Below the pieces are notes generated by a model. It saw only the letters and a program-made list of their open reading frames with translations. It ran no database searches and had not been told where the DNA came from. The position numbers and the translations under genes were made by a program. A DNA stretch of 64,000 nucleotides from Synechococcus sp. CBW1004 (GTDB lineage: Bacteria > Cyanobacteriota > Cyanobacteriia > PCC-6307 > Cyanobiaceae), in assembly GCF_015840715.1 (NCBI RefSeq), contig NZ_CP060397.1:372001-436000 (forward strand), in the 5' to 3' direction. Positions within the stretch are counted from its first letter, which is position 1. The number at the start of each line of letters is the position of its first letter. Positions 2,935-48,417 of the stretch are shown in pieces.

Positions 2935-2935
2935 C

Positions 2936-3370: not shown

Positions 3371-3435
3371 GGATGGAGCTCCTGGGGGAAATGAATGAGT
3401 GGTTCTGGGCAGTTCTCCTGGGTTGGGGCTGGCGT

Positions 3436-12199: not shown

Positions 12200-12287
12200 C
12201 AGGTGGACGGAGCTTGGCGCAACCGCGATGAAAATCAGGTGAAATCGCTTGTGCTCACTAGCATCTGCCAGCTCAAGCCCCCTGCCG
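12200..12287. promoter_or_regulatory. Divergent promoter region between efflux operon and two-component system
   Basis: Eighty-eight bases separate the ATG of the efflux operon (12199, minus) from that of the response regulator (12288, plus). This is the only place where both operons can be controlled. In the nrs system the regulator binds the equivalent intergenic region. I see no clear direct repeat by eye. Confidence 0.5.
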
Positions 12288-14383: not shown

Positions 14384-14402
14384 TCCCTGACTGGATTGCG
14401 GC

Positions 14403-14418
14403 AGAGGGGCGCCCCTCT
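14403..14418. terminator. Perfect 16-bp palindrome between convergent ends
   Basis: AGAGGGGC followed directly by GCCCCTCT lies 20 bases after the kinase stop and touches the stop of the minus-strand ynfA remnant. It may act as a bidirectional terminator, although the stem has no loop of its own and no U-tract follows. Confidence 0.35.
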
Positions 14419-14755
14419 CAGCCCATCAGGATCGTCATTCCGGTGAGGATCACAGCCACCCCGGTGAGATCAAGGGCCGTGAGCGGCACCCCATCCACCA
14501 GCCGTCACCACGCCAGGGCAATCGCCACAACCATCGCGCCAAAGGAGGCGTACACCCGGCGAGCTGCGGTGGGGTGGAAGGTGGGCAGCCATACGTAGAT
14601 CGCCAGGGAGATGGCGGCGGAGATCAGGAGCAGATCGGCCGCTGCTGACGCAGCACCAGGTCGGCTTGGTAACACCCCAGGCTCTCGGCGGCCGCCGTCA
14701 GCAGAAACAGGCTGGTGGTGCGGAACACGGCATGAGCCTCGGGCGAGGACAGCAT
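14418..14755 (-). pseudogene. ynfA: Degraded YnfA-family membrane protein gene
   Basis: The pieces of a YnfA-like four-helix membrane protein of the SMR-related group are present but broken. The N-terminal segment reads FRTTSLFLLTAAAESLGCYQ from ATG 14755. A frameshift near 14640 switches to ADLLLISAAISLAIYVWL, RRVYASFGAMVVAIALAW. An in-frame TGA at 14505-14507 then interrupts it where YnfA proteins carry further Trp residues, followed by RLVDGVPLTALDL and GVAVILTGMTILMG to a stop at 14418. At least two lesions make it non-functional unless the assembly is wrong. It lies at the right end of the metal cassette and was probably part of its transport cargo. Confidence 0.75.
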
Positions 14756-14833
14756 CACTGAGTAGGCGGGCGCCTCTGGGAGTTGGAGCGCTGCACCAAG
14801 CGACCACAGCCGGACAGGGCTGATCCAGTCCCT

Positions 14834-15013
14834 GCCCCACCGGCGCTCTGTGGATCGGCTTCGCGCAGCCCTCCTCATGGTCCGGGCGGCCTCAAGGGCT
14901 GCGCAAGTCAGCCGGACTGGTGCGTTGGCTGCGCTGCGCTCCGCATTGCAGAGGGGGCTGCCCCTTGACCCCGCCCGGCCTGCTTCGGGGTCTCCGCTAC
15001 GCCTGCCATGGCT
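14834..15013 (+). repeat. Intergenic repeat, copy 2 with about 100-bp insertion
   Basis: Bases 14834-14885 match 5093-5144 with two mismatches and 14987-15013 match 5143-5169 exactly. In between, 14886-14986 is extra sequence absent from copy 1. The copy ends at the start codon of the gene at 15008. Together with copy 1 it brackets the metal-efflux cassette in direct orientation. Confidence 0.8.
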
Positions 15014-15205
15014 ACCGAATCCCGCATCCGCGCCTTCCAGCTCCTGAGCTCCCGCACCCTGGGGCTGCTCTGCGAGGAGGCCTCGGCCCACCGCCCTGCT
15101 CCTCTGGAGCGGCTGGAGCTGCTCTGCGCTGATCTCCTCTTTGATCGCCAGCTCCTCAATCCTCACCGGGTGAGCTCCTTCCCCGAGAGCGAGCTGCCCT
15201 TCTGA
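15008..15205 (+). CDS. Small protein upstream of the L,D-transpeptidase
   Basis: A 65-residue protein: MATESRIRAFQLLSSRTLGL, CEEASAHRPAPLERLELLCA, then LLFDRQLLNPHRV. It is soluble, helical and of unknown function. Its stop overlaps the next ATG as TGATG (15203-15207), good evidence that it is translated and coupled to the lysis-type gene. Its start codon lies inside the repeated leader shared with copy 1, and a similar leader precedes the gene at 17047. Confidence 0.55.
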   Translation: MATESRIRAFQLLSSRTLGLLCEEASAHRPAPLERLELLCADLLFDRQLLNPHRVSSFPESELPF

Positions 15206-16044
15206 TGGAGCAGCCCCGGCTGCGGCTGGGGCGCTCTCTTGTGACTGCCGCCGGCGGCCCCAAGCCAGCAATGGCAACAGGGCTCAGCAGCACCACGCCT
15301 ATGGCCAGCCCCATGACCGCCGAGCGGTTCCAGGACCGCTTTGAAGCATTCCGCGGTGAACCCCAGCAGGTCTCCGGCGTCTGGACCCTCCATGCCGCGA
15401 TCGCTGCACTGCCCGGCAGCGAGGCCGTCCTCGAGGAGCAGGCCCCCTGGGCGCTCACCTTCAGCGAGAAACCGGCCGCGCCCCCGGCACCAGCAGTCCC
15501 CAGCGGCGGCCTCGATCCCCGCGGTTCAGAGGAAGCCGGGATGGCGGGCCCGCAGCTGGCAGCTCCCGTCCAGCCCGGGGATTCCTACCTGCTGGTGAAT
15601 GACCGGGACCAGGACATGGAGGCCTACGACCACACCGGGGCCTTCCTCTGGAAGATCCCCTGCCTGGCCCGCGGCCAGGGGAGCGACACCGACTGGACCC
15701 AGAACAGCACCGACACCCCGCCGGGGCTCTACAGGCTTGGCCAGCTCTACCCCGATTACGAGCAGAACCCCAACCCGCCCTGCTCCGATACCGCCATGGG
15801 CTACGGCTGGTATTCCTTCGACATGGAGGAGCTGGAGGGCCAGGAGGTGGCCGTTGGCCGGGCCGGGGTCATGCTCCACGGTGGTGGTTCGGCCTGCGGC
15901 TGGCCCGGCGCCTGGGCAGCGCAGCAGCCCCTGCACCCCACCCTCGGTTGCGTTCGCCTGCACAACGCCGATCTGCGCGACAAGGTGCTGCCCCTCTACC
16001 GGCAGGGCACCGTCTATGTGGGGGTGTTCCAGGAAAAACAGTGA
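15205..16044 (+). CDS. L,D-transpeptidase-fold (YkuD) peptidoglycan enzyme, phage lysis or wall modification
   Basis: A 279-residue protein. Residues 37-90 form a small N-terminal domain (MTAERFQDRFEAFRGEPQQV) and a Pro-rich linker lies at 90-120. The catalytic part runs from about 125: YLLVNDRDQDMEAYDHTG, TPPGLYRLGQLYPD, then MLHGGG with His225 and the nucleophile motif TLGCVRLHN with Cys249 and Arg251. The His-(x)n-GC-x-R signature is that of YkuD transpeptidases, which act on the tetrapeptide stem in the periplasm. Proteins of this type in phage lysis regions may act as peptidoglycan hydrolases or remodelers. The next gene, overlapping by four bases, is holin-like, which supports a lysis cassette. 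Internal Met23, 33 or 37 are alternative starts. Confidence 0.78.
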   Translation: MEQPRLRLGRSLVTAAGGPKPAMATGLSSTTPMASPMTAERFQDRFEAFRGEPQQVSGVWTLHAAIAALPGSEAVLEEQAPWALTFSEKPAAPPAPAVPSGGLDPRGSEEAGMAGPQLAAPVQPGDSYLLVNDRDQDMEAYDHTGAFLWKIPCLARGQGSDTDWTQNSTDTPPGLYRLGQLYPDYEQNPNPPCSDTAMGYGWYSFDMEELEGQEVAVGRAGVMLHGGGSACGWPGAWAAQQPLHPTLGCVRLHNADLRDKVLPLYRQGTVYVGVFQEKQ

Positions 16045-16322
16045 CGCCGGGGCTGGTGCTGCCGCCGGCTGGGGCCAGACCGCCCAAGCCGCCGTTCGAC
16101 CGCGAGCGGTTTGTGTTCAAGATTCTGGCGGTGGTGATCGGGACCCAGCTGCTGATCTATTCCCTCGCCGCTGGGGTCTGCGGTCAGCGGGCGATGGAGG
16201 GCAGGCCGATCGGGCAGATCTGCCCCGGCGCGTTGGAGCAGCTGCAGGGCGGCTTTGATTCCACCCTCAAGCTGTTGCTGGCGCTGCTGGGTGGAGCAGC
16301 GCTGACGCGCATGGACCGGTAA
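16041..16322 (+). CDS. Holin-like small membrane protein
   Basis: A 93-residue protein beginning at a GTG (16041) that overlaps the upstream stop as GTGA, which decides this start. It has a basic N-terminus (PPKPPFDRERFVFK), TM1 at about 28-45 (ILAVVIGTQLLIYSLAAGVC), a short loop, and TM2 at about 76-89 (LKLLLALLGGAALTRM). Two helices, small size and position right after the peptidoglycan enzyme fit a class II-type holin. No sequence family recognised. Confidence 0.6.
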   Translation: MTPGLVLPPAGARPPKPPFDRERFVFKILAVVIGTQLLIYSLAAGVCGQRAMEGRPIGQICPGALEQLQGGFDSTLKLLLALLGGAALTRMDR

Positions 16323-16436
16323 CGCCTGGGAGCGGGAGGGGGGCTTGCTCCGGGCCTCTCCAGTCTGAGGCCCGTCCTGCGGCCGCGCCTCCGCTGGGAT
16401 CGGTCCCGTCGCTGCGCCGTTTGGGCGCCGATCATC

Positions 16437-16772
16437 ATGGCCACGCTCTCTGCAGGCAATTCCGCTGCCACCTCCCCGTTCTGCAGGCCAGAAGAGGATC
16501 CGTTCCTGCTGCTCGAATCCACGCTGCGCTCGGTGGAGGAGATCCTGCTGCGTCGTCGTGGGCTGCCGCTGCGCCGCACCTGGATCGACCAGCCCTATGG
16601 AGAAGAGGAAATCACCCTGCTGGAGGAGGAGGTGATCCCCGCGATCCAGCAGTGTCTGGCGCGGGTGGATGAGCTGGATGAGCGGCTGCTGGCCCAGCAG
16701 GAGCTACTGCAGCGCTGTGAGCTCGAGCTCCAGCGCCAGCCACTGGCTTTGCAGAGGCTGCAGATGGCCTGA
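16437..16772 (+). CDS. Coiled-coil phage accessory protein, unknown
   Basis: A 111-residue acidic protein. After MATLSAGNSAATSPF it reads DPFLLLESTLRSVEEILLRR, then RTWIDQPYGEEEITLLEEEV and a heptad-like helix to the end (QQCLARVDELDERLLAQQEL, QRCELELQRQ). The last third is a likely coiled coil. It lies in the plus-strand block behind the lysis genes; the 115 bases before it contain nothing I recognise. Function unknown. Confidence 0.5.
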   Translation: MATLSAGNSAATSPFCRPEEDPFLLLESTLRSVEEILLRRRGLPLRRTWIDQPYGEEEITLLEEEVIPAIQQCLARVDELDERLLAQQELLQRCELELQRQPLALQRLQMA

Positions 16773-17046
16773 GCGCCATGGGTTGGGGGCTGCAGCTGCG
16801 GCCCCCTTGCCTATGCCTCGATCCAAGGGTTGGTGGAGCAGCTCCACTGCTGGGGCGCGGTGGGCGTTCAGCACGGAGTGGCATCCATGCCCGTGGGACG
16901 TGGCTGGCTGGGCGGAGCGAAACCCCTCCGCAGCATGCCCCTCCGGCTTGCGCTGGCCAGGGCTGACGCGAGGCTCGCGCTGCTCGCCCCTGGCCAGCAC
17001 TGCGCCTGCGGGGCGTCTGGTCGGGGTTCTCCGCTCCACCCCAGCC

Positions 17047-17265
17047 ATGGCCACCCCCCAAGGCCCCGTCTGCGAAGTCCGCCTGCTTGTGGTTCACCGC
17101 TATCAGCCAGGAGTCCAGAAGCTCGGCACTGCCCCCTGTGAGGTCGAGTTCCTGGGCCGCCGCGGTAAGCCCGTCAAGAAGATGCGGCTGATCCCTGCCG
17201 AGAAGGCGTTCGCCTTTGCCCGCAAGCTGCAGGGCACCCCCGGCTGCACCGTCTCGGTCTGCTGA
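17047..17265 (+). CDS. Small basic protein of the lysis-side block
   Basis: A 72-residue protein: MATPQGPVCEVRLLVVHRYQ, QKLGTAPCEVEFLGRRGKPV, KKMRLIPAEKAFAFARKLQG, ending CTVSVC. The alternating beta-strand pattern suggests a small beta-rich fold; three Cys are present. Its ATG is preceded by a leader (17021-17046) resembling the end of the intergenic repeat at 5143 and 14987, suggesting a shared expression signal. Function unknown. Confidence 0.55.
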   Translation: MATPQGPVCEVRLLVVHRYQPGVQKLGTAPCEVEFLGRRGKPVKKMRLIPAEKAFAFARKLQGTPGCTVSVC

Positions 17266-17307
17266 GCCTGGGGGCTCAGGCCCGGTTGCCGGTTGGTGGC
17301 CGGGCCT
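17263..17307. terminator. Double hairpin between convergent genes
   Basis: Two stem-loops follow each other: TGAGCC/GGCTCA (17263-17278, overlapping the stop of the plus-strand gene) and AGGCCCGG/CCGGGCCT (17278-17285 with 17300-17307). They sit exactly between the convergent stops at 17265 and 17307 and could end transcription from both sides. Confidence 0.5.
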
Positions 17308-17582
17308 TACAGCCAATGGCGGTAGGCACTCCGCTGCCGGCGGGCCCTGGCTTTGGAGCGAGCACTGCCGAACTGAGGACTGCTGCCGTCACGGCGACGG
17401 CGCACCCAGGCGCCACGACGAATCAACCGACTGTCGTCGGCATTGGCGCGCCGAGCGGCCACGATCCCCCCATAGCCCTTCTTGTGTCGGTGCTGGGCGT
17501 GGGAGCGAGCCTGGCCGGCGCTGGCGGCCGGCACCACCGTGGCGGTGGAGCGGTTGCGCCAGAACACCAGATACCAGGCCAT
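17307..17582 (-). CDS. Small highly basic phage protein
   Basis: A 91-residue protein: MAWYLVFWRNRSTATVVPAA, QARSHAQHRHKKGYGGIVAA, RLIRRGAWVRRRRD, ending RQRSAYRHWL. The N-terminal 10 residues are hydrophobic and the rest is strongly basic (mostly Arg), suggesting nucleic-acid binding. It is the last gene of the scaffold-side minus-strand operon, 20 bases from the scaffold gene. Could be a minor head protein or DNA-packaging aid; no family recognised. Confidence 0.45.
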   Translation of the reverse strand: MAWYLVFWRNRSTATVVPAASAGQARSHAQHRHKKGYGGIVAARRANADDSRLIRRGAWVRRRRDGSSPQFGSARSKARARRQRSAYRHWL

Positions 17583-17602
17583 CGCTCTACCGGCGAGATG
17601 AA

Positions 17603-18556
17603 TCAGCGCCGCGGTGCAGCCGCCCGGGGCGTGGTGCCCTTGACGGCCTCCAGGTAGAGCTCGGCGGTGCTCAGCGTCTGCAGATTCACCGCGCCGCCGT
17701 GCTCATGGCCCGTTTCCGGCACAGCAGCGGAATAGAGGCCGCTGCGCTGCTGGAACAGGAAGCTGTACACCGGGTGGCGGCGCAGCTCCTCCATGTAGTC
17801 GCCATCGCTCAGGGCCACCCCGTCGGCGGTGAGGGGTTGGCCCTTGCCATCCACCGGCAGCAGCCGCTCGCGTCCATCCACCTCCCCCAGCTGGAAGTGG
17901 CCGCCGCACAGCGTCACGAAGGTGTCAAAGAAGGTGCCCCGCTCATCGCCGCCGACGCGGCCTTCCGCTTCTGAGAAGAGGCGCTCCATCAGCCGTTCCT
18001 TGCGCAGGTTCTGCACCTGGGAGCGGGCCTCGTCCCGTTCCTTTTCGACGCTGCGCACGCGGCGCAGGTTGGCCTCATTGAGCTGGCGTTCACGCTCGCC
18101 CACCTGGCGTTCGAACTCCTCGCGCTTGCGCTCGGCGTCCTGCAGACGGGCGTACTCGTCCGGGTTGATCTCAGAGAAACGCGACAGCTGGGCACGGGCC
18201 TTGCGCAGTTCTTTCTCGAGCTGGTTGCTGCGGCGCCGTTCGGCGCGCAAGGGATCAGCACTGCTGGGAGCAGCGGCAGGGGGGTCGCCGCTGCCGTTGA
18301 CACCTGGGTCCTGGGGCAGGGAGAGGTCGAGGGCGTCGTCGCCGTCGGCAGCATCCAGACCAGCGTCAGCGGCGCCGTCGCTGTCGAGCAGGTCAGGGTC
18401 GGTGGCAGGTGGAGCTGAGCCCGTAGGGCCCTGGTTGGGTTGCTGCTGCTGTTGGCGGTAGGTCTCCCATCGGCCAGGAGGGACCATGGGACCTGGAGCA
18501 GCGCCGCTGTTGGCGCGGCTGGAATCAGAGGAGAAGAAGGAGGAGGAGGGCATCAC
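17603..18556 (-). CDS. Phage capsid scaffolding-like protein
   Basis: A 317-residue protein. The first 100 residues are disordered, Gln/Pro/Asp-rich (YRQQQQQPNQGPTGS). Residues about 105-200 form a long charged coiled coil (RRRSNQLEKELRKARAQLSR, LQDAERKREEFERQVGERER). A compact C-terminal part follows (GRVGGDERGTFFDTFVTLCG, YMEELRRHPVYSFLFQQRSG). This order is typical of phage scaffold or head-assembly proteins encoded between portal and capsid. It lacks a visible protease triad. The expected neighbour, the capsid gene, is separated from it by the plus-strand cargo block. Function assigned from architecture and gene order. Confidence 0.65.
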   Translation of the reverse strand: MMPSSSFFSSDSSRANSGAAPGPMVPPGRWETYRQQQQQPNQGPTGSAPPATDPDLLDSDGAADAGLDAADGDDALDLSLPQDPGVNGSGDPPAAAPSSADPLRAERRRSNQLEKELRKARAQLSRFSEINPDEYARLQDAERKREEFERQVGERERQLNEANLRRVRSVEKERDEARSQVQNLRKERLMERLFSEAEGRVGGDERGTFFDTFVTLCGGHFQLGEVDGRERLLPVDGKGQPLTADGVALSDGDYMEELRRHPVYSFLFQQRSGLYSAAVPETGHEHGGAVNLQTLSTAELYLEAVKGTTPRAAAPRR

Positions 18557-18622
18557 CCATCACGGCTGTGGTGCTGCGGGCGCCCCGTCCGGGCTGCGCT
18601 CGCTCTCCCTGTTGCCAGCTCC

Positions 18623-19807
18623 TCAAAAGCCCTGCTCAGGCAGCTCATCCAGCACGGGAGCAGAGCGCCGGGCCGGCAGGTAGATCCACTCCCCCGTCGG
18701 CAGCGGCGTCGAGGGCATGTAGCCAGGCACCAGCAACTGCATCCCCGCCGGGATGGAAGTGGTGGAGCGGTAGACGGGCAGGAGCAGGGTGGTGCCAGCC
18801 GGCAGCGGTTCCTCGCTGGGCCAGCTGCTCAGCTCCGGGTTGAACTGGCGCAGCAGGGAGAGGCTGAGGCTCTGCTCGGCCGCCACGCTGCTCAAGGTCT
18901 CGCCATCGCCGGTGACATAGGCCTCGCTCTGCTGCAGCACCGGGTTGAGGCTGCGCAGCTTGGTTTCGGTCGTGCCATGGCGGCCAGCCAGCACCGCCAG
19001 CGAATCCCCATCAACGGAGGTGATGGTCTGGGTGCTTTCCAGCTGGGGGTTGATCCGCCTCAAGGTGGCCACGGTGGTGCCGTAGCGCTCAGCGATCAGG
19101 TTCAGCGTGTCGCCATCGCGCAGCACCAGCACGCTGTGGGGCCTGAGCACCAGCTGGATCGCTTCCCCCAGCAGCGGCTGCACCAGCAGGCCGATGCCAC
19201 CTGGGCCGTAGTCCGCCCCGAAGTGCATCACCTGGCAACCCGCGAACTGGGCCCGGCCACCGGATGGCAGCCCGCCCTCCGGTTGCAGCAGTGCCAGGTC
19301 CCCGAGCCACATCACCCCCTGGCAGGGGGCCTGCACCGTGCCCAGCAGTGCCGGATCCCACGGCAGCGGCGCTTCCTCGCGAAAGCCAGGGGTGGCCCAA
19401 TCCATCTCGGCCGCCAGCCAGTCAAAGGTGTTGCTGGTGCTCACCGGCAGGATTGCCGCCCGGCAGAGATAGCCGCGCAGGAGCACATCGCCTGGGTCGG
19501 TGAGGGCGGTGTCGTTGTAGCCGCTGACGATGCCGCTCTGCTCGAGGAAGCAGTCGATCACATGCCGGCGGATCGGGATGGGGCTGCGGCTCTCGGGCCG
19601 ATCCACCTCAAACAGGCAGAGGCGGGCATTGGCGTAGGGCTGCAGTGCCAGCCACAGGGGCGAGGCCCCAAGGGGCGCAGCCGCGGGCTGGGCCACCCGG
19701 CTGTCGATCGCCGGGCTGGCCGCAGGCAGTGCAACCATCTGCCCCCACAGCGGAGCACCCCGCAGGGGGTTGAGGCCCTGGTTCAGCGGTGAGAGGGGCT
19801 GCTCCAT
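18623..19807 (-). CDS. LysM-repeat phage protein
   Basis: A 394-residue protein. Residues 1-215 are an uncharacterised domain (LWLALQPYANARLCLFEVDR, GDVLLRGYLCRAAIL, CQVMHFGADYGPGG). From about 222 there are three LysM-like units: VLRDGDTLNLIAERYGTTVA, VDGDSLAVLAGRHGTTETKL and TGDGETLSSVAAEQSLSLSL, each followed by an (I/L/F)NP(Q/V/E)L motif. LysM binds peptidoglycan or chitin-like glycans. In phages such domains occur in lysins or in tail-associated connector proteins. No catalytic residues are seen. Its place between connector and scaffold genes suggests a virion component. The next gene upstream stops four bases before its ATG. Confidence 0.65.
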   Translation of the reverse strand: MEQPLSPLNQGLNPLRGAPLWGQMVALPAASPAIDSRVAQPAAAPLGASPLWLALQPYANARLCLFEVDRPESRSPIPIRRHVIDCFLEQSGIVSGYNDTALTDPGDVLLRGYLCRAAILPVSTSNTFDWLAAEMDWATPGFREEAPLPWDPALLGTVQAPCQGVMWLGDLALLQPEGGLPSGGRAQFAGCQVMHFGADYGPGGIGLLVQPLLGEAIQLVLRPHSVLVLRDGDTLNLIAERYGTTVATLRRINPQLESTQTITSVDGDSLAVLAGRHGTTETKLRSLNPVLQQSEAYVTGDGETLSSVAAEQSLSLSLLRQFNPELSSWPSEEPLPAGTTLLLPVYRSTTSIPAGMQLLVPGYMPSTPLPTGEWIYLPARRSAPVLDELPEQGF

Positions 19808-20324: not shown

Positions 20325-21977
20325 TCAGCTGCCCCCGTTGTGCTCGCTCAGCCCCAGCTGCTGACGCAGCTCGGCGCCGTCGATCACTCCCCGCTCATGC
20401 AGCACCAGCCACTCCTGCACCGAGGGCTGGGGTTTGCGCGGCGGCTGGGGTGGCACCAGTGGGCAGATCTCCACACTGCAGACCGGTTGATCCGCCAGCT
20501 TTTCGCCAGTGAGGCGGGTCCACTGGCGCAGCAGGGTGCTGAGCATTGAGGCCTTCTGACCTGCCAGCGATTGCAGCACCGCAAAGCTCTGGCCGGCGGT
20601 GAGCGAGACCTCCAGCTCAGTGCGGGCTGGTCCGTGGCCGACGGCGGGGATCAGGGCATCTCGGCGCATGGCTTCTTCCAGCTGCTGCAGGTAGGCCCGG
20701 TGCTCCGCCAGAGATCGGGCTTCTATTTCCACCCACTCGAACTTGGCGCCCTCGGGCAGGTCCATAAACGAGGAGGTGGAGAGCACCAGCCGCTGGGGCC
20801 GCTGTCCTTCTATGCCACCGGCAGTTGCACCCGAGCCGAGGGCGCCATCGCTGCGGCGGAAGCCGTAGGCATCCACCAGTCCTGTGCGCACACCCACAGG
20901 CAGGGCGGTGCGGGAGAGGAGGTCTTCGTATTCGCTGCGGCAGCGGTAGTGGTTGAGGTACTGGTGCGCTAGGCCCAGGTGGGGCAAATCGCCTTCTCCA
21001 AAGGCGGTGCCATCCACCGAGTACCAGAGCGCCGGTATGTCAAAGCGCTGGGGCATCCGCTCCGGCTCGCCCACCGGCACCACGTCGTAGCCATCGACGG
21101 CACCGGGATTGGGGTTGGCCTGCCAGCTGCGCAGCACCAGACCGTCATCCGTCACCGCCAGGCTGCGGTAGAGCCAGGCCTGCGGGTCCGGCACCAGTCC
21201 GCCGTGGGCGTCGAGCACCATCGTTGGCACCGCCGCATTGCCGCTGGCAAAACGTGGCGGCAAGGCCTGACGGCGCGGCTCTCGCCAGACGATCTCCACC
21301 GGGCCCGACGCCGGAGCCGCACTGGCGGTATCGGTGGGCAGGCGCCAGTTGAGCAGGTCGCGCCGGGGCACCAGCTGCAGCCGCGGCAGGGAGAGCCGGT
21401 CGCCCTTGGCGAGGGCCTCCAGCCGATCGCCCTCTGAGGGCCAGCGGTGCTGGGGCGGCAGCTGCAGGATTAGACAGCCGCCATCCCGCAGGGTGAGCAG
21501 GTCGGCCAGGAAGAGGAACACCCCCAGGTCCGTGCCCTGGCCGTCCACATCGGTGGCCACGCGGGTCAGGGAGTCGGGCAGTTCCTGCCAGGCCAGGCGC
21601 GACAGCATCCCCGCGTAGGTGCGCAGGGCATCGCGGTAGAAGCCGGTAGGCCGGGCTGCTTCCAGGCGCTTGAGGTAGCAGGTCTCGGGCTCCTCGATGC
21701 CGCGGGGGAGATAGACCGGCCGGCGGCTGGTGCCGTCAGGGAGCTCCAGCAGGGTCCAGCAGTCGTAGACCAGCTGCAGGCGATCCCGCAGGCCGGAGAG
21801 GGTGGGATGTTCCAGCCAGGGGGGCTGGGCAGGGGGCTGAGCTTGCTGTGCGGCTGGGGAGGTGGAGCTACTGGAGGTGGCTGACCTGCGACGGGTAGTG
21901 GGCACTGGCTGTGGTGGGGTCAGAGCTATTGCCAGCGGCCGTGGTTGACCTAGGGGAGGGCAGTGAAAGCTCTGCAC
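20325..21977 (-). CDS. Phage portal protein (DUF4055-like)
   Basis: A 550-residue protein. After a low-complexity Ser/Pro/Gln leader (about 1-55) it reads LRDRLQLVYDCWTLLELPDG, RPVYLPRGIEEPETCYLKRL, FYRDALRTYAGMLSRLAWQE, DLGVFLFLADLLTLRDGGCL and PALWYSVDGTAFGEGDLPHL, LAHQYLNHYRCRSEYEDLL. The order of these blocks matches DUF4055 proteins, which are predicted portal subunits forming the dodecameric DNA gate of the head. Position next to connector and scaffold genes agrees. The first 40 residues may be an over-extended start. Immediately upstream the sequence changes to the AT-rich island with ietAS, so the original operon promoter has been separated from it. Confidence 0.75.
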   Translation of the reverse strand: MQSFHCPPLGQPRPLAIALTPPQPVPTTRRRSATSSSSTSPAAQQAQPPAQPPWLEHPTLSGLRDRLQLVYDCWTLLELPDGTSRRPVYLPRGIEEPETCYLKRLEAARPTGFYRDALRTYAGMLSRLAWQELPDSLTRVATDVDGQGTDLGVFLFLADLLTLRDGGCLILQLPPQHRWPSEGDRLEALAKGDRLSLPRLQLVPRRDLLNWRLPTDTASAAPASGPVEIVWREPRRQALPPRFASGNAAVPTMVLDAHGGLVPDPQAWLYRSLAVTDDGLVLRSWQANPNPGAVDGYDVVPVGEPERMPQRFDIPALWYSVDGTAFGEGDLPHLGLAHQYLNHYRCRSEYEDLLSRTALPVGVRTGLVDAYGFRRSDGALGSGATAGGIEGQRPQRLVLSTSSFMDLPEGAKFEWVEIEARSLAEHRAYLQQLEEAMRRDALIPAVGHGPARTELEVSLTAGQSFAVLQSLAGQKASMLSTLLRQWTRLTGEKLADQPVCSVEICPLVPPQPPRKPQPSVQEWLVLHERGVIDGAELRQQLGLSEHNGGS

Positions 21978-22952
21978 GGCTTTTGTTATCGCTTCAGACC
22001 AGATAGGTCATACGCTACATAGTCCTTGGACTCGAATCTGGCTCTAGTGAATAAGCAGGCTTGATGGGCACCCTCGGCCTTCGCAATGCCTGCTTCGCAT
22101 CGATTCGAAACTTCCACTCGAAATGACCTCGGCGTCTTGTGCGGGCAGTACTTTTAGCGCTCGCTTACAGAAGCCCACTTACAATGTATATACTGAGCCT
22201 AGCTTCTTGTGGTCCAGAGCTTTACCGAGTAACCTGTGAATTACGGATTGCCATCCAAGGTCAACACTTCATGCTGGCCATAATATTGCCATAGACCAGA
22301 TTTGCATAGAACATAAGCCTTGCGCTAGTCATAATTACAGTCACGAGATTTATTCAGAGACAGTCCACATGGCCAATACGAATCATAATTCACGAGGAGC
22401 CGAATAGCGATTGAATTTGCTTAAGGGCGATCAAGCTAGGCCAATCTGTTATCTCGAGACGAAAGCCCCCCTTGATAGCCATTCAAGATCATTAAGTCAA
22501 TCCAGGCTGCTCTGTTTAAATTATACTTTAACGACGATCCTTGCACATGCCTAGCAAGCCTCTTGTGCTCGCACTTGTGCGATGTCGCCGCCGGATTTGC
22601 TATAGCAAAGAAAGTCTTGAAACAATGACTTTCTCCCGGGTTCACGATGCACTGCGGGAGTGGTTCGATAGGGGCAGATCAAGGAGCGCTCTGTCCCCAA
22701 AGAAAAGCCAAGAAACCTAGACAATGATTCACGGCATTGATACAATTGAGAGGCGACTACAGTGGAATTGGACCATGACATCATCTAAGGATTCTCCCGA
22801 TTCCGCCCATGTTGCCATTAGGGGGCCATGTCCGTTCCAAGCAAACCGAAGCAAGTACTGGTCGCCACGAAGAGCTGCTTGGCCTAAGATGGTGTGCGAC
22901 TAAAATGACATTTTTGGAGAAAGCCAAATGAATCCTGTGCGGGGGCACTTAA
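21978..22952. other. AT-rich non-coding leader of the ietAS island
   Basis: About 975 bases with no convincing gene on either strand. The base composition is visibly more AT-rich than the phage genes on both sides. Short frames such as those at 22436-22645 and 22551-22784 on the minus strand have no family resemblance or plausible context. The stretch probably holds the promoter of ietA and the left junction of the inserted island. I found no obvious terminal inverted repeats or transposase remnant by eye. Confidence 0.6.
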
Positions 22953-23960
22953 ATGGCGCGCAGTGATCTACTAATAAACCTTGTGAGAGCAAGTGTCTTG
23001 GGGGACAAAAGTGCAGTCCGCGAGGTAGTAGAGACAATTATTGCTGAAGAGAAAGGCAAGCAGCACATGGTGCTGGCAGAGCGGCTCGCACGGGCTATTC
23101 AGGCAAGTGATATTACTACAAAGAGATGCTCTTCAATCTCCGATAGTCATCAGAAAGAACGTGAGTGTCTCTCTGAAGTTATGCCCAAGCGTGAGCTTGG
23201 CGATATTGTTCTTTCCGCAAAGTGTCGCAAGGCAGTTGATCAGTTTATCGAGGAGCAGCAAAGATCAGGATTGCTTCGTGCGCATAGTCTCGACCCGAGG
23301 AACCGCCTTCTTCTCGTTGGCCCGCCAGGCAATGGCAAGACATCTCTTGCGGAAGCAATCGCCGAAGCATTGGCCGTACCGTTTTACGTAGTCCGTTACG
23401 AGGCAATGATCGGAAGCTATCTCGGAGAAACTGCAACTCGTCTCAAACGCGTGTTCGACTATGTGCGCACAACGCCCTGTGTCCTGTTTTTCGACGAGTT
23501 TGATGCGGTCAGCAAAGAACGGGGTGATATCCATGAAACTGGAGAGATTAAACGCGTAGTTACATCGCTCTTAATGCACGTTGATGAATTGCCAAGCTAC
23601 GCGGTCGTCATTGCGGCCACCAACCACTCCGAGCTGCTGGACCGGGCAGTCTGGCGCCGTTTCCAACTCCGACTAGGCCTGCCGGCGCCAGGAATAAAGG
23701 AGCTGACCGAGTACTTCGAACGTTTTCTTGCCTCGTTTGACAAGGTCCCTGGTGTTTCCGGAGCAAATATTGCCAAGCGTCTAGGAGCAATCAGCTATGC
23801 CGAAGCAGAGGAATTCACTCTCGGCGTGCGCCGCCGTCAAATCATGGCGATGCAGGAGAGCCCGCTGAGGAAGACGATCGAAGAACAACTAGATCTGTGG
23901 GAACAGTTGGTCCAACCGACACGTTCTTACGCTGCAAATCAAGGATTGGTCGATGGCTGA
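22953..23960 (+). CDS. ietA: IetA-like AAA+ ATPase of an ietAS defence pair
   Basis: A 335-residue classic AAA ATPase. It has a helical N-terminal region (1-90), Walker A GPPGNGKT at 123-130, the pore-loop-like segment YVVRYEAMIGSYLGETATRL at 145-164, Walker B LFFDEFD at 178-184, sensor 1 at Asn224 (AATNHSELLD) and arginine-finger-type residues at 231-236 (RAVWRRF). The next gene, overlapping by eight bases, is a subtilisin-like protease. AAA ATPase plus S8 peptidase is the ietAS arrangement, first described as plasmid-stability/incompatibility genes in Agrobacterium and later reported as an anti-phage system. The ATPase may unfold or regulate the protease. Codon use and GC differ from the surrounding phage genes, suggesting separate acquisition. 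Confidence 0.85.
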   Translation: MARSDLLINLVRASVLGDKSAVREVVETIIAEEKGKQHMVLAERLARAIQASDITTKRCSSISDSHQKERECLSEVMPKRELGDIVLSAKCRKAVDQFIEEQQRSGLLRAHSLDPRNRLLLVGPPGNGKTSLAEAIAEALAVPFYVVRYEAMIGSYLGETATRLKRVFDYVRTTPCVLFFDEFDAVSKERGDIHETGEIKRVVTSLLMHVDELPSYAVVIAATNHSELLDRAVWRRFQLRLGLPAPGIKELTEYFERFLASFDKVPGVSGANIAKRLGAISYAEAEEFTLGVRRRQIMAMQESPLRKTIEEQLDLWEQLVQPTRSYAANQGLVDG

Positions 23961-26568
23961 TCGTCCCCTTCTGGCGATGCCACGTCCAGAGCGAAGAGCA
24001 CCAGCAGCTGGCCAGCCCCCTAGGGAGAGGATTCCTTCCGTCGATGCTGTCCGTCAGGCCGAAAGGCTTGGTGCGAAATTCGACCGTCTAGAACGTGCGC
24101 TTGGCGACCCTGATGCGCTGGGCGAGCTTCGGGATGATCCGTCTGCAATAGTGCCCGAACGCGCGCTCGTTTTCGAGATCGCCAGCGAAGTCGTTGACTT
24201 TTACCGCGCGGTGCGCGGCGTACCGGGACTTGAGTTCCTCGGAGAGGATGAAGGCGATGCCGCACCCGATGAAGACTTCTACCTCCGGGACGGGGACGGG
24301 GAGCCAAGAGCTGATAGACGGGTACCACTTCGATATTATTTTACAATTCCTGATCGGACTGCTCTCAGGGAACTTCTAAGTCTGTGGCAGAGGTTTCAGC
24401 GAGGCGAGGAACTCGGACACGGTCGTACTGCATGGCGCGATGTGTTCATGCATCTCGCAGATGTCCGACCATGGGGGCCCAGAGACCGCTTGACACAAGA
24501 GGCAATCGAAGACTGGCAAGAGCGGTTGCTACTCGCACCTGATACGCCTATTAGGTTTGAGGTCGAGTTCTGGTATCGCGATGCCGCGGCTCGCAGAGAG
24601 ATAGCTGAAACTACCTTCCTGAATAGGCTACGAGAACTTGGCGGGCGGATTCTTGATCGCTCGGTAATTGATCCGATCCGTTACCAAGCTGTTTTGGGAG
24701 AAGTATCGCCTGCTGTCATTCGGGACGTGCTCAACCATCCCGATGTGGGCCTAGTCACTCTCGATGATGTGATGATGCTGCGGCCACAGTCGATGGTTTC
24801 GGGTCTTGTCGAAGGTGACCTAGATGATGCTTCAGAAACAACATCCGACGAATGCAGGACAGATCTTGAACCGCCAATAGCAGCTCTGCTTGACGGCATG
24901 CCCATGACGCAGCATGACCGGCTTGCCGGACGGCTGATTGTCGACGATCCGGATAGTTTCGCCGACGAGTATGGGAGTGCGGCGGATCAACGGCATGGAA
25001 CCGCTATGGCGTCGTTGATCCTGCATGGTGATCTTAATGCGCGCAATCCTAAGTCGCCGCTACGGCGTCGCCTCTATGTACGCCCAGTCATGTACCCACA
25101 GCCAGACGGGTTAGACAGTGTAAGAGAGGTGATGCCCGCCGACCGTCTCGGCATTGATCTAATGTGGCGCGCCTTCATTCGGATGTTCGACGGGGAAGGA
25201 GATTCAGAACCGACCGCGCGGACGGTGCGGATCATAAACTTGTCGCTCGGTGACGCTAAAAGGCGATTCGCTGGTGTCATGAGCCCTTGGGCGCGCCTGA
25301 TAGATCATCTCGCTTGGCGCTATAAAGTCCTTATTCTGGTGAGTGCAGGAAATATCTTAGACCAATTATCTTTAGATGGTGTGATGCAGTGGGCCCACCT
25401 CGAGCGTGGGGATGCGTACAACAGACAATTGACTATGCTCCGTGCGATTATGCGTCGGCGCGCGGATCGACGCCTGCTCGCACCTGCTGAGGCAATCAAT
25501 GCTCTAACCGTTGGTGCAGCGCACGCCGACCACATTTCGCCGAATGGCCAGAGTGTGATGGCTATCGATCCATATTCGAGCGCGGCGCTGCCCAATCCGA
25601 GCTCCGCTTTGGGGCTGGGATTCAAGCGTGCGATCAAACCGGAAATCCTCCTGCCCGGTGGCGCCGAGCAGGTACGGGCGAGTTCAACTCATGCTCCCAT
25701 CGATGTTGGCCCTATTACGCGACCAGCGAATCTTTTTGGCATTGGCGTGGCGAGTCCCGGTCCCGCCGGTCAAATTAACCGTAGAATCAACATGAGCGGC
25801 ACAAGTGTCGCAACGGCACTTGCGACGCACAACGCAATACGCATACTTGAAGCGCTTGAAGAACTGCCGAATGATCCGGTTCATCCGATGATTGACCCTG
25901 CTTACCACGCCGTTATGCTTAAGGCGCTTCTGGTCCACAGCGCACAGTGGGATGATGACGCTGCAAGTGCGATTAAGGAAATCATCGCAGAAAATGGGAG
26001 ACTTCATTGGGAGCATGAGCGAGACGAAATCAGCCGCTTTCTTGGCTTTGGCTGTCCCAATATCGAACGCATAGTTGATTGCGCTGAGAACCGCGCGACC
26101 TTATTCGGATGGAACACGATCCACTCACATGAGACCGATCGATTCGCGGTGCCTCTCCCAGTAGAGCTCGACGGGATGCCAGGTTTTCGGGCACTGTCAG
26201 TAACAATTGCATGGCTCACGCCAATCACTAATTCTCATCGAATGTATAGACTCGCGAAGTTCAAGGCAGGCCCGGGCAGTGACAGATCTTTTTCTATTGG
26301 CGTAGCAAACGCAAAACATCAACCGTCATACAACGCGATCGGAAAGGGGACTGTCTATCACCAGCGCTGGGAGGGCGAAGAGGCGGCGGCCTTCGTTGAT
26401 GGAGGGAATCTTGTCCTCGACATAACCTGCTCGCCTGCAGCTGGCAGGCTTGACGATCCGATTGCATATGCTGTAGCAACAACGCTCGAAGTCGGCCAGG
26501 CAGTTGAAGTGCCAGTTTATGACCGCGTGCGTGAACGCTTGAGACAGGCAGTCCGTATCAATGCATAA
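23953..26568 (+). CDS. ietS: IetS-like subtilisin-family (S8) serine protease
   Basis: An 871-residue protein. Residues 1-300 form a long N-terminal region without a signal peptide (cytoplasmic). The peptidase domain spans about 305-640, with candidate catalytic Asp314 (IAALLDGMP), His348 (QRHGTAMAS), oxyanion Asn467 (LVSAGN) and Ser615 (NMSGTSVATALA). A C-terminal beta-rich domain (about 700-871) follows. In subtilases the order Asp-His-Ser is as seen here. The start overlaps ietA by eight bases, so the pair is co-translated. In ietAS systems protease and ATPase act together; the trigger and substrates are, to my knowledge, not established. All active-site residues are present, so it is probably functional. 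Confidence 0.87.
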   Translation: MADRPLLAMPRPERRAPAAGQPPRERIPSVDAVRQAERLGAKFDRLERALGDPDALGELRDDPSAIVPERALVFEIASEVVDFYRAVRGVPGLEFLGEDEGDAAPDEDFYLRDGDGEPRADRRVPLRYYFTIPDRTALRELLSLWQRFQRGEELGHGRTAWRDVFMHLADVRPWGPRDRLTQEAIEDWQERLLLAPDTPIRFEVEFWYRDAAARREIAETTFLNRLRELGGRILDRSVIDPIRYQAVLGEVSPAVIRDVLNHPDVGLVTLDDVMMLRPQSMVSGLVEGDLDDASETTSDECRTDLEPPIAALLDGMPMTQHDRLAGRLIVDDPDSFADEYGSAADQRHGTAMASLILHGDLNARNPKSPLRRRLYVRPVMYPQPDGLDSVREVMPADRLGIDLMWRAFIRMFDGEGDSEPTARTVRIINLSLGDAKRRFAGVMSPWARLIDHLAWRYKVLILVSAGNILDQLSLDGVMQWAHLERGDAYNRQLTMLRAIMRRRADRRLLAPAEAINALTVGAAHADHISPNGQSVMAIDPYSSAALPNPSSALGLGFKRAIKPEILLPGGAEQVRASSTHAPIDVGPITRPANLFGIGVASPGPAGQINRRINMSGTSVATALATHNAIRILEALEELPNDPVHPMIDPAYHAVMLKALLVHSAQWDDDAASAIKEIIAENGRLHWEHERDEISRFLGFGCPNIERIVDCAENRATLFGWNTIHSHETDRFAVPLPVELDGMPGFRALSVTIAWLTPITNSHRMYRLAKFKAGPGSDRSFSIGVANAKHQPSYNAIGKGTVYHQRWEGEEAAAFVDGGNLVLDITCSPAAGRLDDPIAYAVATTLEVGQAVEVPVYDRVRERLRQAVRINA

Positions 26569-26844
26569 GTTTCATCAGCCAATGCGGATCCCCTCTCGAC
26601 TACGCAGGGGCGATCGTTTGGTGCATTGCGTCACGATGGGCGTATGTTTTTCCCGGTCCTGAAGTTAGACATACTCTCCGCGTAATCAAGGTCGAGGCCT
26701 GAGATCCACTCTTGGCGCAAGACAATGTAAATACATCGCCTGTATCATGTGATTTATGTGTCCGTCGCCAACTAACACTCGAGTGCTCGGCCCACCTCCC
26801 CCTGCTGGCTGCCTCATCTCCTTGTCTGCCACGAAGAGGAAGCG
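26569..26844. other. Spacer between ietS and the phage sigma-factor gene
   Basis: This 276-base interval is the right junction of the defence island. The short frames in it have no recognisable products, and the gene at 26845 reads toward it. It may contain the terminators of both convergent units, but no strong hairpin was obvious to me. Confidence 0.4.
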
Positions 26845-27546
26845 TCACTCAGCAGGTAATGCAACAACCCGTACTGAGCATGCATCAACGATCTCAATCC
26901 ACTGCCCGCGGCTGATCCCTATTCGCTCCAGCGTCTCACCCACGCCAACTCCTGAAGTAAGCAACCGCTTCCCCCGCGCATGAATCTCCCGCCACGTAGG
27001 CGGCACCTTGAGCAGAAAGCCATTGTCCCGCAAAAAGTGCGTGATCTCCCCATTTGCGTAGGTGCGCCCATAGGGACGGAATGGGCCCCGTGAGGGGTCG
27101 TATCGGCGCGCTGCCTTGATCAACCCGATCATCGCCAGCTGCAGCAGGTCCTCCTTGGGATGGATGGTGCGCCGAGCGAAGTTGCCGGCGATCTTCTCTG
27201 CCAGATCCATGTGTTTCAGCGCCAGGGCATCAGCCGCGGCATGGGGCCGCACCGGCCGTTGTTGCCGGGGTCTGCAGCGCACGGGCTGCTGACCCTGGGC
27301 TCTGGGTGGGTGATGGACCGGAGCCTGCAGGTTGATCTCCAGCTGCTGCGCACGGGCATGGCACGCGGGCCCGCGATTGCGCCGTTGCCGCAGCATTCGC
27401 TCCGCCCCAGCCGGATTGCCCACCAGCACCACCGTGATCGGCAGCACCAGCTGCACCACGACCGGCGCCAGCACGGCAGCCCCTGGGCTTTTCCCCAGAG
27501 ATGGCGTGGGATGTTCCCGCACTGCGGACACCATCGGTACGCTCAT
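26845..27546 (-). CDS. Phage-encoded sigma-70-family factor
   Basis: A 233-residue protein from the ATG at 27546, which overlaps the terminase stop as ATGA. Residues 1-110 are a basic/Pro-rich unknown segment (GNPAGAERMLRQRRNR). From about 115 it carries sigma region 2: HMDLAEKIAGNFARRTIHPK, EDLLQLAMIGLIKAARRYDP, GRTYANGEITHFLRDN, then KVPPTWREIHARGKRLL at the start of region 3. The C-terminus (LERIGISRGQWIEIVDACSV) ends early in the region 3/4 area, so no full region 4 is visible. Such short sigma factors occur in cyanobacteria. In a phage it could redirect host RNA polymerase to late promoters. The N-terminal half may have another role. Confidence 0.75.
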   Translation of the reverse strand: MSVPMVSAVREHPTPSLGKSPGAAVLAPVVVQLVLPITVVLVGNPAGAERMLRQRRNRGPACHARAQQLEINLQAPVHHPPRAQGQQPVRCRPRQQRPVRPHAAADALALKHMDLAEKIAGNFARRTIHPKEDLLQLAMIGLIKAARRYDPSRGPFRPYGRTYANGEITHFLRDNGFLLKVPPTWREIHARGKRLLTSGVGVGETLERIGISRGQWIEIVDACSVRVVALPAE

Positions 27547-29186
27547 CGGCTCACCAGCAGTGGCGTCACCACCGGCTGGATGCCCTGGGCCTTCCAGTAG
27601 CGACCCTCCAGCCAGAGGGCGCCGTGGCAGAAGGCATCCACCAGGTCCTTGCTGCCCTTGGGAAAGCGGATCGCTTCCTCCACCAATGGCTGGGCGCGGT
27701 GGTGGAAGCGGATCTGCCCGGCCTCCAGCAGGGGAGCCACGGCATGGGCGCGGGTCTCCTTGCTGCCTCGGGCGGTGATCGGCAGCATCCCCGGCACCCG
27801 GCGCCGCAGGGTCTGCAGCACCGCCGGGCCATTGGCAGCGTCCTCGATCAGCACGGCATTGGGCCGCAGGCCCTGCTGTTCCAGCGCCTGCAGGCAACCC
27901 AACAGGAAGCGGATCACCTCCGGCAGGCCAAAGCGGTGCCGGGCTGACCAGAGCACCTCGATCTCCAACTCTTTGGGCCCGGATGGGCCCTGCGGTTCAC
28001 CCGTTCGGGGGATGGCAGAGCGGGCCGGTGGTGCCAGCAAGCCGGCAAGGCAGAAGCCGCAGTAGTCGCTTTCCGCCTCGCCCTTGAAGCTGAGGTCACA
28101 GGAGAGCGCCAGCAGCGCGTACTGGCGCTGGTTGCCCTCCTCACGGGGGAAGGGCGGCCGGATCCACTGCCGCAGGAAGATGGACCCAGACGCCGGGCTG
28201 GGTCGCTGCTGGTACAGCGCCGCCCACCAGTAGGCCCCGAGACGGGCCCTGATCTTGAGCAGTTCCGGCAGGGGGAACCGCTCCGGGCACAGCGCCTCAC
28301 CCGCCTGGCGCCAGTCGGGGATCAGGGTGCAGGTGGACGGCAGCTGGGGCCGTTCGCCTGGCTCTTCCGCGATAGCCGGCAGGTCCAGAATGGTCCAGTT
28401 CTGGGGGGCCTCGCCCAGCTCCTGCTCCAGCAGCCAGCCGATCACGTCCTGGTGGTCCCAGCGGGTGAGCACGACCACCTGGGCTGAGAGGTTGGGCTGC
28501 TCGCTGCCGTCTGGTCCCAGCACCGACGCGGGCTCAGCTCGGGTGAGCCACACCGATCGCAGCCAGTCGATCAGCTTCTGACGCAGCGCCGGGGATGCCG
28601 CATCACCTGGGCCCTTGTAGGGGTCGTCGATGATCCCCAGGCTGTAGCCCTTGCCGGTGAACGGGCCATCCACACCAGCAGCGATGCAGCCGCCGCGCTG
28701 GCGGGTGAGCCAGTTGCCCACGGCCGCCGAATCGCGGGCCAGCAGGTGGCCGGTCACTCGATAGAAGTGACGGGCTTCTCGGGAGTGGGCATAGGCCAGC
28801 TCCGCCGAGTACGACGCAATCGCCGCGAAGAGATGCGGGTAGCGCTGCAGGAAGTAGGCCGGGAACAGCTTCGAGACCAGCAACGACTTCCCCAGCCGGG
28901 GCGGACAGGTGACGATCAGCCGGCCAAGGTGGCCATCCGCCACCTGCTGGAGCAGGTCGATCAGCACCTCAGCCCAGCGGTGGAAGCCGTAGCGGGGGTA
29001 GGCCTCAGCGATGAAGCTGCGCAGGCTCTGGGGTTCCGATGGCTCGGCAGCAGTGGCCGTTGGGAGGTGGAGGAGGCCGGCATCGCCCCAGGGGTCGAGC
29101 TCGCTCAGCAGCAGGCCGCCTTCAGCAGGGGCCTGTGGCGTGAGCACCGGTGTTGGTATCGCAGTGGCGGCGGTGCTCGCCGTCAT
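27543..29186 (-). CDS. terL: Phage terminase large subunit
   Basis: A 547-residue packaging ATPase-nuclease. Walker A-type motif TCPPRLGKSLLVSKLF at about 93-108, preceded by FHRWAEVLIDLLQQVADGHL. A Walker B-like IIDDPYKGPGDA follows SLG near 180. VVVLTRWDHQDVIGWLLEQE is the coupling segment. The C-terminal RNase H-like nuclease begins at ALSCDLSFKGEAESDYCGF, and further acidic residues come in LIEDAANGPAVLQTLRR and SKDLVDAFCHGALW. It drives DNA into the prohead and cuts concatemers. ATG 29186 overlaps the small-subunit stop as ATGA. Length and motifs are normal. Confidence 0.9.
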   Translation of the reverse strand: MTASTAATAIPTPVLTPQAPAEGGLLLSELDPWGDAGLLHLPTATAAEPSEPQSLRSFIAEAYPRYGFHRWAEVLIDLLQQVADGHLGRLIVTCPPRLGKSLLVSKLFPAYFLQRYPHLFAAIASYSAELAYAHSREARHFYRVTGHLLARDSAAVGNWLTRQRGGCIAAGVDGPFTGKGYSLGIIDDPYKGPGDAASPALRQKLIDWLRSVWLTRAEPASVLGPDGSEQPNLSAQVVVLTRWDHQDVIGWLLEQELGEAPQNWTILDLPAIAEEPGERPQLPSTCTLIPDWRQAGEALCPERFPLPELLKIRARLGAYWWAALYQQRPSPASGSIFLRQWIRPPFPREEGNQRQYALLALSCDLSFKGEAESDYCGFCLAGLLAPPARSAIPRTGEPQGPSGPKELEIEVLWSARHRFGLPEVIRFLLGCLQALEQQGLRPNAVLIEDAANGPAVLQTLRRRVPGMLPITARGSKETRAHAVAPLLEAGQIRFHHRAQPLVEEAIRFPKGSKDLVDAFCHGALWLEGRYWKAQGIQPVVTPLLVSR

Positions 29187-29716
29187 GCCCGTGGCTCCGG
29201 CGGCTTGATCGGTGCCCGCAGCAGACCGCCGATCTCGGCGATCACCCGGAAGGCGCCCACCGCCGCGTTGAACTGCTCGGCGTCCATCGCCCGCCTGGCG
29301 CAATCGTTCAGGGCAAAGATCTGCTCAGCCTGGTGGCGGCGCCGGTCAGAGATCAGCTCCTCCACCATCCGCTGCCGAGCCAGCGCCAGATAACGGCTCA
29401 CCGTTTTGATGTTGGTGATTCCCCAGTTATGGGCTGCTTTTTCCCTGATCTGTGCAAGTGGCAGCCGCTGGGCGATCCACAGCTGCGCTTCGGCGATTCG
29501 GGTCTCCACCTCCATGTGGGTGGCGCGGGGCTTGTGGCTCTGGCTGCGGCGGCCCCGCGGCGGATTGCCCTTGCCGACCGGCCGGCTGGGGTCTGCAGCC
29601 GGCCAGACGGGCTGGCCATCGGCGTCTTGCTGGGGTGGGGCAGCACGCAGTTCCTCCAGCGACTCAGTGCCCGCGTCTGAGCAAGCGCCCGCTGTCGGTG
29701 GCTGCTCGGGGCTCAT
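29183..29716 (-). CDS. terS: Phage terminase small subunit-like protein
   Basis: A 177-residue protein. A disordered Pro/Arg-rich N-terminus (1-65) precedes a helix-turn-helix-like region: ETRIAEAQLWIAQRLPLAQI, WGITNIKTVSRYLALARQRM, then a long helix EQIFALNDCARRAMDAEQFN. Small terminase subunits recognise pac/cos DNA through such a domain and oligomerise through the following helices. The stop overlaps the terL start by four bases and the gene upstream overlaps its ATG, so the three are translated together. Confidence 0.75.
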   Translation of the reverse strand: MSPEQPPTAGACSDAGTESLEELRAAPPQQDADGQPVWPAADPSRPVGKGNPPRGRRSQSHKPRATHMEVETRIAEAQLWIAQRLPLAQIREKAAHNWGITNIKTVSRYLALARQRMVEELISDRRRHQAEQIFALNDCARRAMDAEQFNAAVGAFRVIAEIGGLLRAPIKPPEPRA

Positions 29717-38867: not shown

Positions 38868-39074
38868 ATGACATCCGCAACCGATCGACTGCTGCGGCTC
38901 CCAGAGGTGATCCACCGGGTCGGCCTCTCACGCACCACGATCTACAGCCTGATCGCCACAGGCGAGTTCCCCAGGCAGATCGTGATTGGCCCACGGGCGG
39001 TGGCCTGGTCCCAGCAGGAGCTGGAGGACTGGATCACCTCCAAGCGTCAGGCCGCATGCAGCGCTGATGGTTGA
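38868..39074 (+). CDS. AlpA-family excisionase/regulator
   Basis: A 68-residue protein with RLLRLPEVIHRVGLSRTTIY, SLIATGEFPRQIVIGPRAVA, WSQQELEDWI. This is the AlpA/MerR-like winged HTH of prophage excisionases and integrase regulators. Its 3' end overlaps the convergent integrase gene by 28 bases, the usual int-xis neighbourhood. Confidence 0.85.
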   Translation: MTSATDRLLRLPEVIHRVGLSRTTIYSLIATGEFPRQIVIGPRAVAWSQQELEDWITSKRQAACSADG

Positions 39075-48363: not shown

Positions 48364-48417
48364 GGAGAGCCCCTGGCTGAAGCGTGCCTCCAGTTTGTTG
48401 GGAGCTGCCTGCACCAT
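48364..48417 (-). pseudogene. Vestigial 5' end of pglZ
   Basis: An ATG overlapping the pglX stop as TGATG opens MVQAAPNKLEARFSQGLS, which matches the real pglZ start (MTQAAPNKLEARFCQELS at 46485) in 14 of 18 residues. It then runs into the repeat array. This is the former pglZ start left behind when the AlbA-type gene was inserted. It may still be translated as a short junk peptide (frame open to 48232). Confidence 0.8.

Follow-up and report, generated by a model that had tools for sequence, protein, structure and literature searches.

The window, by which we mean the whole 64,000-nucleotide stretch of Synechococcus sp. CBW1004 DNA analysed here, contains two overlapping genes within a run of phage genes. 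The first of them, ietA (22953-23960, + strand), encodes an AAA ATPase whose residues 1-324 match the PADLOC family IetA at E=2.1e-142, and the second, ietS (23953-26568, +), encodes a subtilisin-like protease whose residues 1-869 match PADLOC IetS at E=5.8e-292. The start of ietS overlaps the end of ietA by 8 bases. Pfam places the two ORFs in AAA (E=5.8e-29) and Peptidase_S8 (E=4.8e-18); the ATPase carries the Walker motifs GPPGNGKT and VLFFDE and the protease the D/H/S motifs LLDG, HGT, SAGN and GTSVA, which we take to be the active sites. The IetAS system is a pair of AAA ATPase and subtilisin-like protease encoded by overlapping genes. The window copy, with an IetA-family ATPase adjacent to an IetS-family protease bearing catalytic motifs, resembles that pair in composition, gene overlap and motifs, but differs in its setting: it looks to be carried as an integron cassette within a prophage head module.

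The pair lies antisense to the phage genes that flank it. The right flank in phage orientation is the portal gene (20325-21977, −; phrog_145, E=8.4e-20), which may start at GTG 21905 instead of 21977 because in most close relatives the protein match does not start until residue 14-50, L090 being an exception with a match from residue 1. A short motif just before this likely start, TGGCAATAGC / TGGCAAGAGC at about 21927-21936, can be seen by eye in most relatives, including one with an empty slot (L112), and is perhaps a late promoter element. The left flank is a sigma-70 region-2-like phage gene with its conserved part at 26845-27345 (−; Pfam Sigma70_r2, E=2.4e-11). Its ORF opens at 27897, its stop codon occupies 26845-26847, and it is 51-91% identical in relatives. 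Beyond it lies terL, the terminase large subunit gene (27543-29303, −; phrog_38, E=1.7e-74). Positions 21978-26844 fill exactly the space from the portal ORF to the sigma stop codon, and the GC content of 22187-26844 is 0.535, as against 0.69 for the portal gene and 0.68 for the sigma-terL stretch. Terminase, portal, scaffold and phage integrase genes form one cluster, the last of these (39047-40327, −; phrog_1, E=1.4e-56) being the integrase of the prophage and not an integron integrase. We regard the element as a prophage because of this phage integrase, the scaffold protein and the relatives present in many genomes. The host's genome, 3.67 Mb long, is assembled as one contig. An earlier note on this DNA had described an ATPase-protease pair of the IetAS families with intact active sites, antisense, in AT-richer DNA and exactly between the portal and the sigma/terminase genes of a prophage, and each part of that description held up: PADLOC, Pfam and the motif check agree on the enzymes, neither protein clusters away from its family, and the GC values and the phage integrase bear out the setting. 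A second AT-rich cargo of the window lies beyond the phage integrase, where a 1466-aa Eco57I/MmeI-like restriction-methylase gene (48417-52817, −; Pfam Eco57I, E=1.2e-12) coincides with a GC dip of 0.50-0.61.

Relatives of terL occur in 14 of 60 genomes (the window's own included), all in one of 24 genera, and relatives of the portal gene at E<=1e-10 were found in 65 of the 400 family genomes and 15 of 59 genera, some of these matches being fragments. The slot was checked in part of these 65 genomes, and the stretches compared, 60 plus 20 more, are selected good matches and integrase loci rather than all matches. Wherever one stretch holds all three genes, the order terL, sigma-like gene, portal is constant. 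The distance between sigma and portal genes runs from 23 bp in the practically empty slot of L112 to 8.2 kb across the 48 slots, the window's among them, for which both edges could be mapped. Both genes, with a gap between them, are also present on all ten of the IMG/VR contigs whose portal gene is close. The flanks are often more than 85% conserved in the close group. The cargo itself is almost unshared: with 132 ORFs of 120 aa or more compared across 55 slots, only five slot pairs have a related ORF over 60% of its length, the duplicate pair L102/L103 aside. Of these ORFs, 101 are antisense to the phage genes, and the GC content of the slot is below that of the rest of the locus in 56 of 56 measured (mean 0.52 vs 0.68). 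The earlier note had called for a comparison of related prophages for other cargo in this slot, and for a relative in which the two sides lie adjacent; the comparison yields both, L112 being the near-adjacent case.

Three rearranged loci were seen along the way. In the same host, L052 (G000:C1:905000-924999) contains a second, broken portal relative at 10541-11977, matched in three pieces, with a scaffold fragment at 18652, and is probably a decayed sister prophage. In L050 (G020:C126), about 9 kb at 9567-18741 with a primase/helicase-like match on the other strand splits the sigma-like gene. In L035 (G029:C47), pieces of an integron integrase in several frames lie at 6377-7163, in a 5.9-kb gap that is not the main slot but separates the lysM-like gene from the scaffold gene.

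Many of the slots carry an imperfect hairpin at the sigma-gene end, for example GCCTAACATCCAGATACAGAAGACGGG..CCCGCTTCTGATCTGGGGCGTTAATC in L101, and the same kind of hairpin occurs outside these phages in spaced arrays adjoining integron integrase genes. A covariance model of these attC sites, R1, was trained on 16 sites, all outside the slots; in its consensus structure, R''/R' pairs are accompanied by unpaired spacers and single bulged bases, and compensatory change is seen at 12 of the 20 pairs. We scanned 66 phage loci (990 kb) with R1, in which 56 two-flanked slots make up 168 kb, or about 17% of the bases, the window and the duplicate L103 included. At E<=1 the scan gave 42 rows representing 41 distinct places, and 37 of the 41 fall within two-flanked slots. 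All 37 are antisense to the phage genes, which is the orientation of the cargo, and 16 of them lie within 32 bp of the end of the sigma gene. Two of the remaining places are in an open-ended slot (L105), one is at a contig-end edge (L037) and one is outside (L157, 510-612). At E<=0.001, R1 finds attC in 26 of the 66 loci and none in the other 40, some of which have no slot, so that slots would also decay or change by other routes. A wider model, R3, partly trained on slot sites, adds further, mostly weak sites. On the IMG/VR contigs, 12 attC rows at E<=0.01 occur in 5 of the 10, with 10 of the rows in the slot and two elsewhere in L181. The latter two (17443-17527 and 18785-18868) are well downstream of the portal gene and, like the integrase pieces of L035, possibly mark a second integron site in these phages. 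A 62-bp near-perfect palindromic attC-like site in L154 (9326-9387, GCCTAACATGCGCATTCAGCGG...) is matched on both strands.

The portal side of the slot carries the other parts of an integron. Similarity to the integron integrase IntI at E<=0.01 was found in 13 of 63 slots, as complete, near-complete or remnant genes, antisense in all 13 and within 210 bp of the portal match in 10. The gene is nearly full length in L150 and full length in L124 (G234), where a complete IntI at 2601-3536, 75% identical over 1-312, shares one element with an attC at 6687-6778 (R1, E=1.6e-11). Downstream of most of 20 IntI genes or remnants, in and outside phages, there is a conserved segment ending in an attI-like ..G|TTRRRY, the crossover rule given in the available text of PMC9892861; L135 and L041 do not fit this pattern, and the alignment of the L124 segment has GTTC instead of GTTR, with E=0.18 against the profile of attI sites from outside phages. 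In the close group, which has no IntI in the slot, the portal-side DNA can be aligned up to the corresponding attI column and then diverges, and by eye GTTR is retained at this column in about 10 of 29 rows. The profile of eight attI sites from outside phages, run over 63 loci, reached E<=1 at nine places, mostly with weak scores; eight are in slots, one is in an open slot and none is outside. The conservation of the slot, the attC, attI-like and intI sequences of the relatives, their orientation and the cargo families can all be read directly from sequence. We also considered a single clade of phage IntI, and found it unsupported: to place the three phage rows (two of them partial) among the others takes three changes, and shuffling the labels does as well. 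Of the rows labelled chromosomal, L158-L162, L164 and L166 were checked and have no portal or terL match.

From this we conclude, with a probability of roughly four in five, that the phages bear an integron in the slot from the sigma/terminase genes to the portal gene and that the IetAS pair of the window is its cassette, with decayed attI and attC. Antisense to the phage genes, the order would be portal, intI, attI, one or more cassettes each of gene or genes plus attC, and the sigma stop codon, with intI recognisable, in complete, near-complete or remnant form, in roughly one in five of the slots examined but not in the window. Cassettes would enter by integron-integrase recombination at attI, with the crossover in G|TTRRRY and with the integrase supplied by the phage or the host. 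With a crossover at that point the sigma and portal genes would stay intact whatever is captured, and insertion would be tolerated because a position between the sigma stop codon and the portal gene cuts no phage gene. The earlier note had proposed a tolerated insertion point for cargo. The cargo slot stands; what that note missed is that the slot resembles an integron-type site made up of attI, cassette and attC, where relatives carry integrase genes or their remnants, and a plain tolerated insertion with no mechanism was demoted to a rival reading since the relatives have attC sites, attI-like sequence and IntI.

In the window itself, both sites look decayed. A profile of the attI region built from seven relatives, the window excluded, has a single match in the 64 kb at E<=10, at 22091-22144 (+) with E=0.00023. 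It is the proximal part of a putative decayed attI-like region at 22091-22186 (+), the distal part of which (22145-22186) comes from MAFFT alignment only, the profile having missed the R-box end; the crossover aligns to about G22186. At the other edge, a candidate decayed attC of the cassette spans 26767-26850 (+). An nhmmer profile from eight sites of one attC family, all outside phage slots, has its best match in the window at 26778-26845 (+) with E=0.0015, the next being at 2.8. This match ends in GCGT, and the expected crossover, G26844|T26845, abuts the sigma stop codon at 26845-26847. Together, the attI match, the crossover near G22186 and the attC junction would delimit a cassette of about 22187-26844 holding ietA and ietS. 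A pairwise-alignment control for this attC was moderately strong only, 22 of 1500 random windows reaching its score, and a profile from all 63 attC sites has no match at this place. A second decayed attC suspected by eye at about 22550-22680 was rejected, the profile match at 22550 reaching merely E=1.9 in the slot. The integron evidence is strong for the lineage and good but not conclusive for the window.

The pair could instead have come by a transposon or illegitimate recombination after the integron had decayed, so that the attC and attI relics have nothing to do with its insertion. Consistent with this, none of the covariance models R1, R2 and R3 scores an attC in the window above noise, and many pairs are broken (the R2 match at 26770-26850 has 8.2 bits, or E=0.53 when the slot alone is searched). 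In addition, a stretch of about 770 bp between the attI relic and ietA is unexplained, and some relatives have transposase-looking ORFs in the slot, judged by eye from translations. Against it, the attC relic, about 200 bp 3′ of ietS, is oriented like the cargo and stops just where the G|T junction is expected, and the orientation of ietA and ietS is that of a cassette. We consider this other route unlikely. IetS relatives occur in 3 of 400 family genomes, the window's own included, and the other two are 38-39% identical; the cassette could not be traced through close relatives among these 400 genomes, and the two other, short IetS loci have no attC at E<=1. No IntI similarity was found in the window slot at E<=0.01. 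Our preferred reading of the IetAS pair is a two-gene cassette, now fossilised, in a phage integron that lacks an integrase, and with decayed attI and attC and no intI in the slot it would now probably be locked in.

What the slot carries in relatives bears on what the pair may do. When 29 large cargo proteins, chosen by hand, were scanned singly, 16 had PADLOC matches at E<=1e-5, among them HEC-01A, HEC-04, two Lamassu LmuB proteins, a type IIG restriction enzyme, PDC-S59 and an HNH restriction enzyme; further matches were broad AAA/AriA-like, and those to Lit, SIR2 and mad3 were weak or generic. The other 13 had no PADLOC match at E<=1e-5, which suggests the slot as a place to seek new anti-phage genes. 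A scan of 95 cargo proteins at E<=0.001 matched 264 PADLOC and 85 Pfam families in all (families, not proteins, being counted), with MmeI, AbiGi and ABC-three-component domains among the matches. Non-defence cargo occurs too, such as DNA alkylation repair and GTP cyclohydrolase II. The slot cargo is often defence-like, and its enrichment in defence genes is an impression.

The pair might alternatively be the phage's own ATPase and protease for host takeover or control of superinfection and not an immune system, and PHROGs does list both families as phage proteins of unknown function (phrog_3757, E=1.8e-86; phrog_3964, E=8.4e-44). PADLOC IetA and IetS are nonetheless the best matches, the cargo of relatives in the same slot is often defence-like, and ietAS runs antisense to and apart from the phage operons, which together make such a role doubtful. 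We favour IetAS as an anti-phage system that probably benefits both prophage and host, its expression and defensive activity being surmised, and it may protect the host against rival phages as the earlier note had suggested.

Integrons are already known from phages. According to the available text of Qi et al. 2023 (PMC9892861), integrons and CALINs occur in 21 phages, and 5 of 6 phage attC sites tested recombined with IntI1. Those phages resemble the present lineage in having integron integrase, attI, attC and cassettes within phage or prophage genomes; as far as that text goes they are single cases in diverse phages, whereas here a single phage lineage has one fixed slot in its head module, with 48 slots mapped. 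In the available part of its main text, the words "cyano", "Synechococcus", "defense" and "portal" do not appear. It is the only close report on integrons in cyanophages or prophage head modules among the literature matches listed. These matches, which leave out most subscription papers and preprints, report no integron slot that is fixed in a head module and shared by a whole phage lineage. The matches listed for IetA and IetS include nothing on their mechanism, and ietA is merely mentioned in the available part of PMC10924106.

The earlier note had also called the position of the cargo unusual, and this needs a correction, since cargo next to the portal gene has precedent: in P2-like and P4-like defence hotspots, the P2 slot lies between gpA and the portal gene gpQ (Rousset et al. 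2022, PMC9122126, from the available text). Like the slot described here, those hotspots hold 1-5 kb of anti-phage cargo with high turnover between two conserved phage genes, one of which in P2 is the portal. They belong to a different phage group, and the flanks here are a terL/sigma-like gene and a DUF4055-type portal rather than the gpA-gpQ slot beside cos; the word "integron" is absent from the main text of PMC9122126 as available, and here candidate exchange machinery can be named. That the slot is an ordinary prophage diversity hotspot of this kind, with cargo swapped by homologous recombination through the conserved flanks and the integron parts incidental, accords with flanks often above 85% in the close group, with the 40 of 66 loci lacking attC (R1, E<=0.001) and the 50 of 63 slots lacking IntI similarity, and with a portal-adjoining P2 hotspot described, in the available main text, with no mention of integrons, but is improbable given the concentration of attC in the slot (37/41) in one orientation (37/37) and near the sigma end (16/37 within 32 bp), and the attI-like sequence and IntI genes or remnants on the portal side. 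Flank recombination and integron exchange may both be at work together.

A chromosomal (sedentary) integron can serve as a store of anti-phage cassettes. The phage platform shares with it the units of cassette plus attC and the defence cargo, and differs in riding in a prophage. The proposed phage-borne integron offers a named mechanism for content change in one prophage defence hotspot, an integron platform with a crossover point abutting a stop codon, so that cassette capture would leave the phage undamaged. It would join two gene-exchange systems, temperate phages and integrons, in one vehicle, and it makes the turnover of prophage defence hotspots directly testable by the standard attC x attI recombination assay.

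An integrase could also come from the host. Of 40 genomes searched, 23 (the host's among them) have an integron integrase that exceeds the curated cut-off, as do 13 of 18 genomes with the close phage type (the window's genome included). The host IntI (G000:C1:1968004-1968936) scores 464 bits, has no stops and looks intact, and it could have acted in trans on the window slot. Recombination activity and such capture in trans are what we infer from these sequences. In the single-contig genome G234, the IntI in the prophage slot is the only one at E<=1e-60, and three attC sites reach E<=1e-5, two in slots (L124 and L097) and the third at a distance of 1.5 kb from a portal fragment. G267 has just two attC sites at this E-value, one in the slot of L101 and one in that of L167, and the other six genomes scanned at this threshold have 5 to 19 attC each, many outside slots. 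A broader proposal, which we see as evenly balanced, is that a whole lineage of picocyanobacterial temperate phages keeps an integron in its head cluster as a programmable bay for defence cassettes, served by a phage integrase or by a host integrase in trans, and that these phages would carry immunity genes from the chromosomal integrons of one genus to those of another. The window host has three strong attC sites elsewhere in its genome (G000:C1:2769975, 2779203 and 2779942; E from 1.9e-12 to 3.2e-9), a trio that lies about 0.8 Mb from the host integron integrase.
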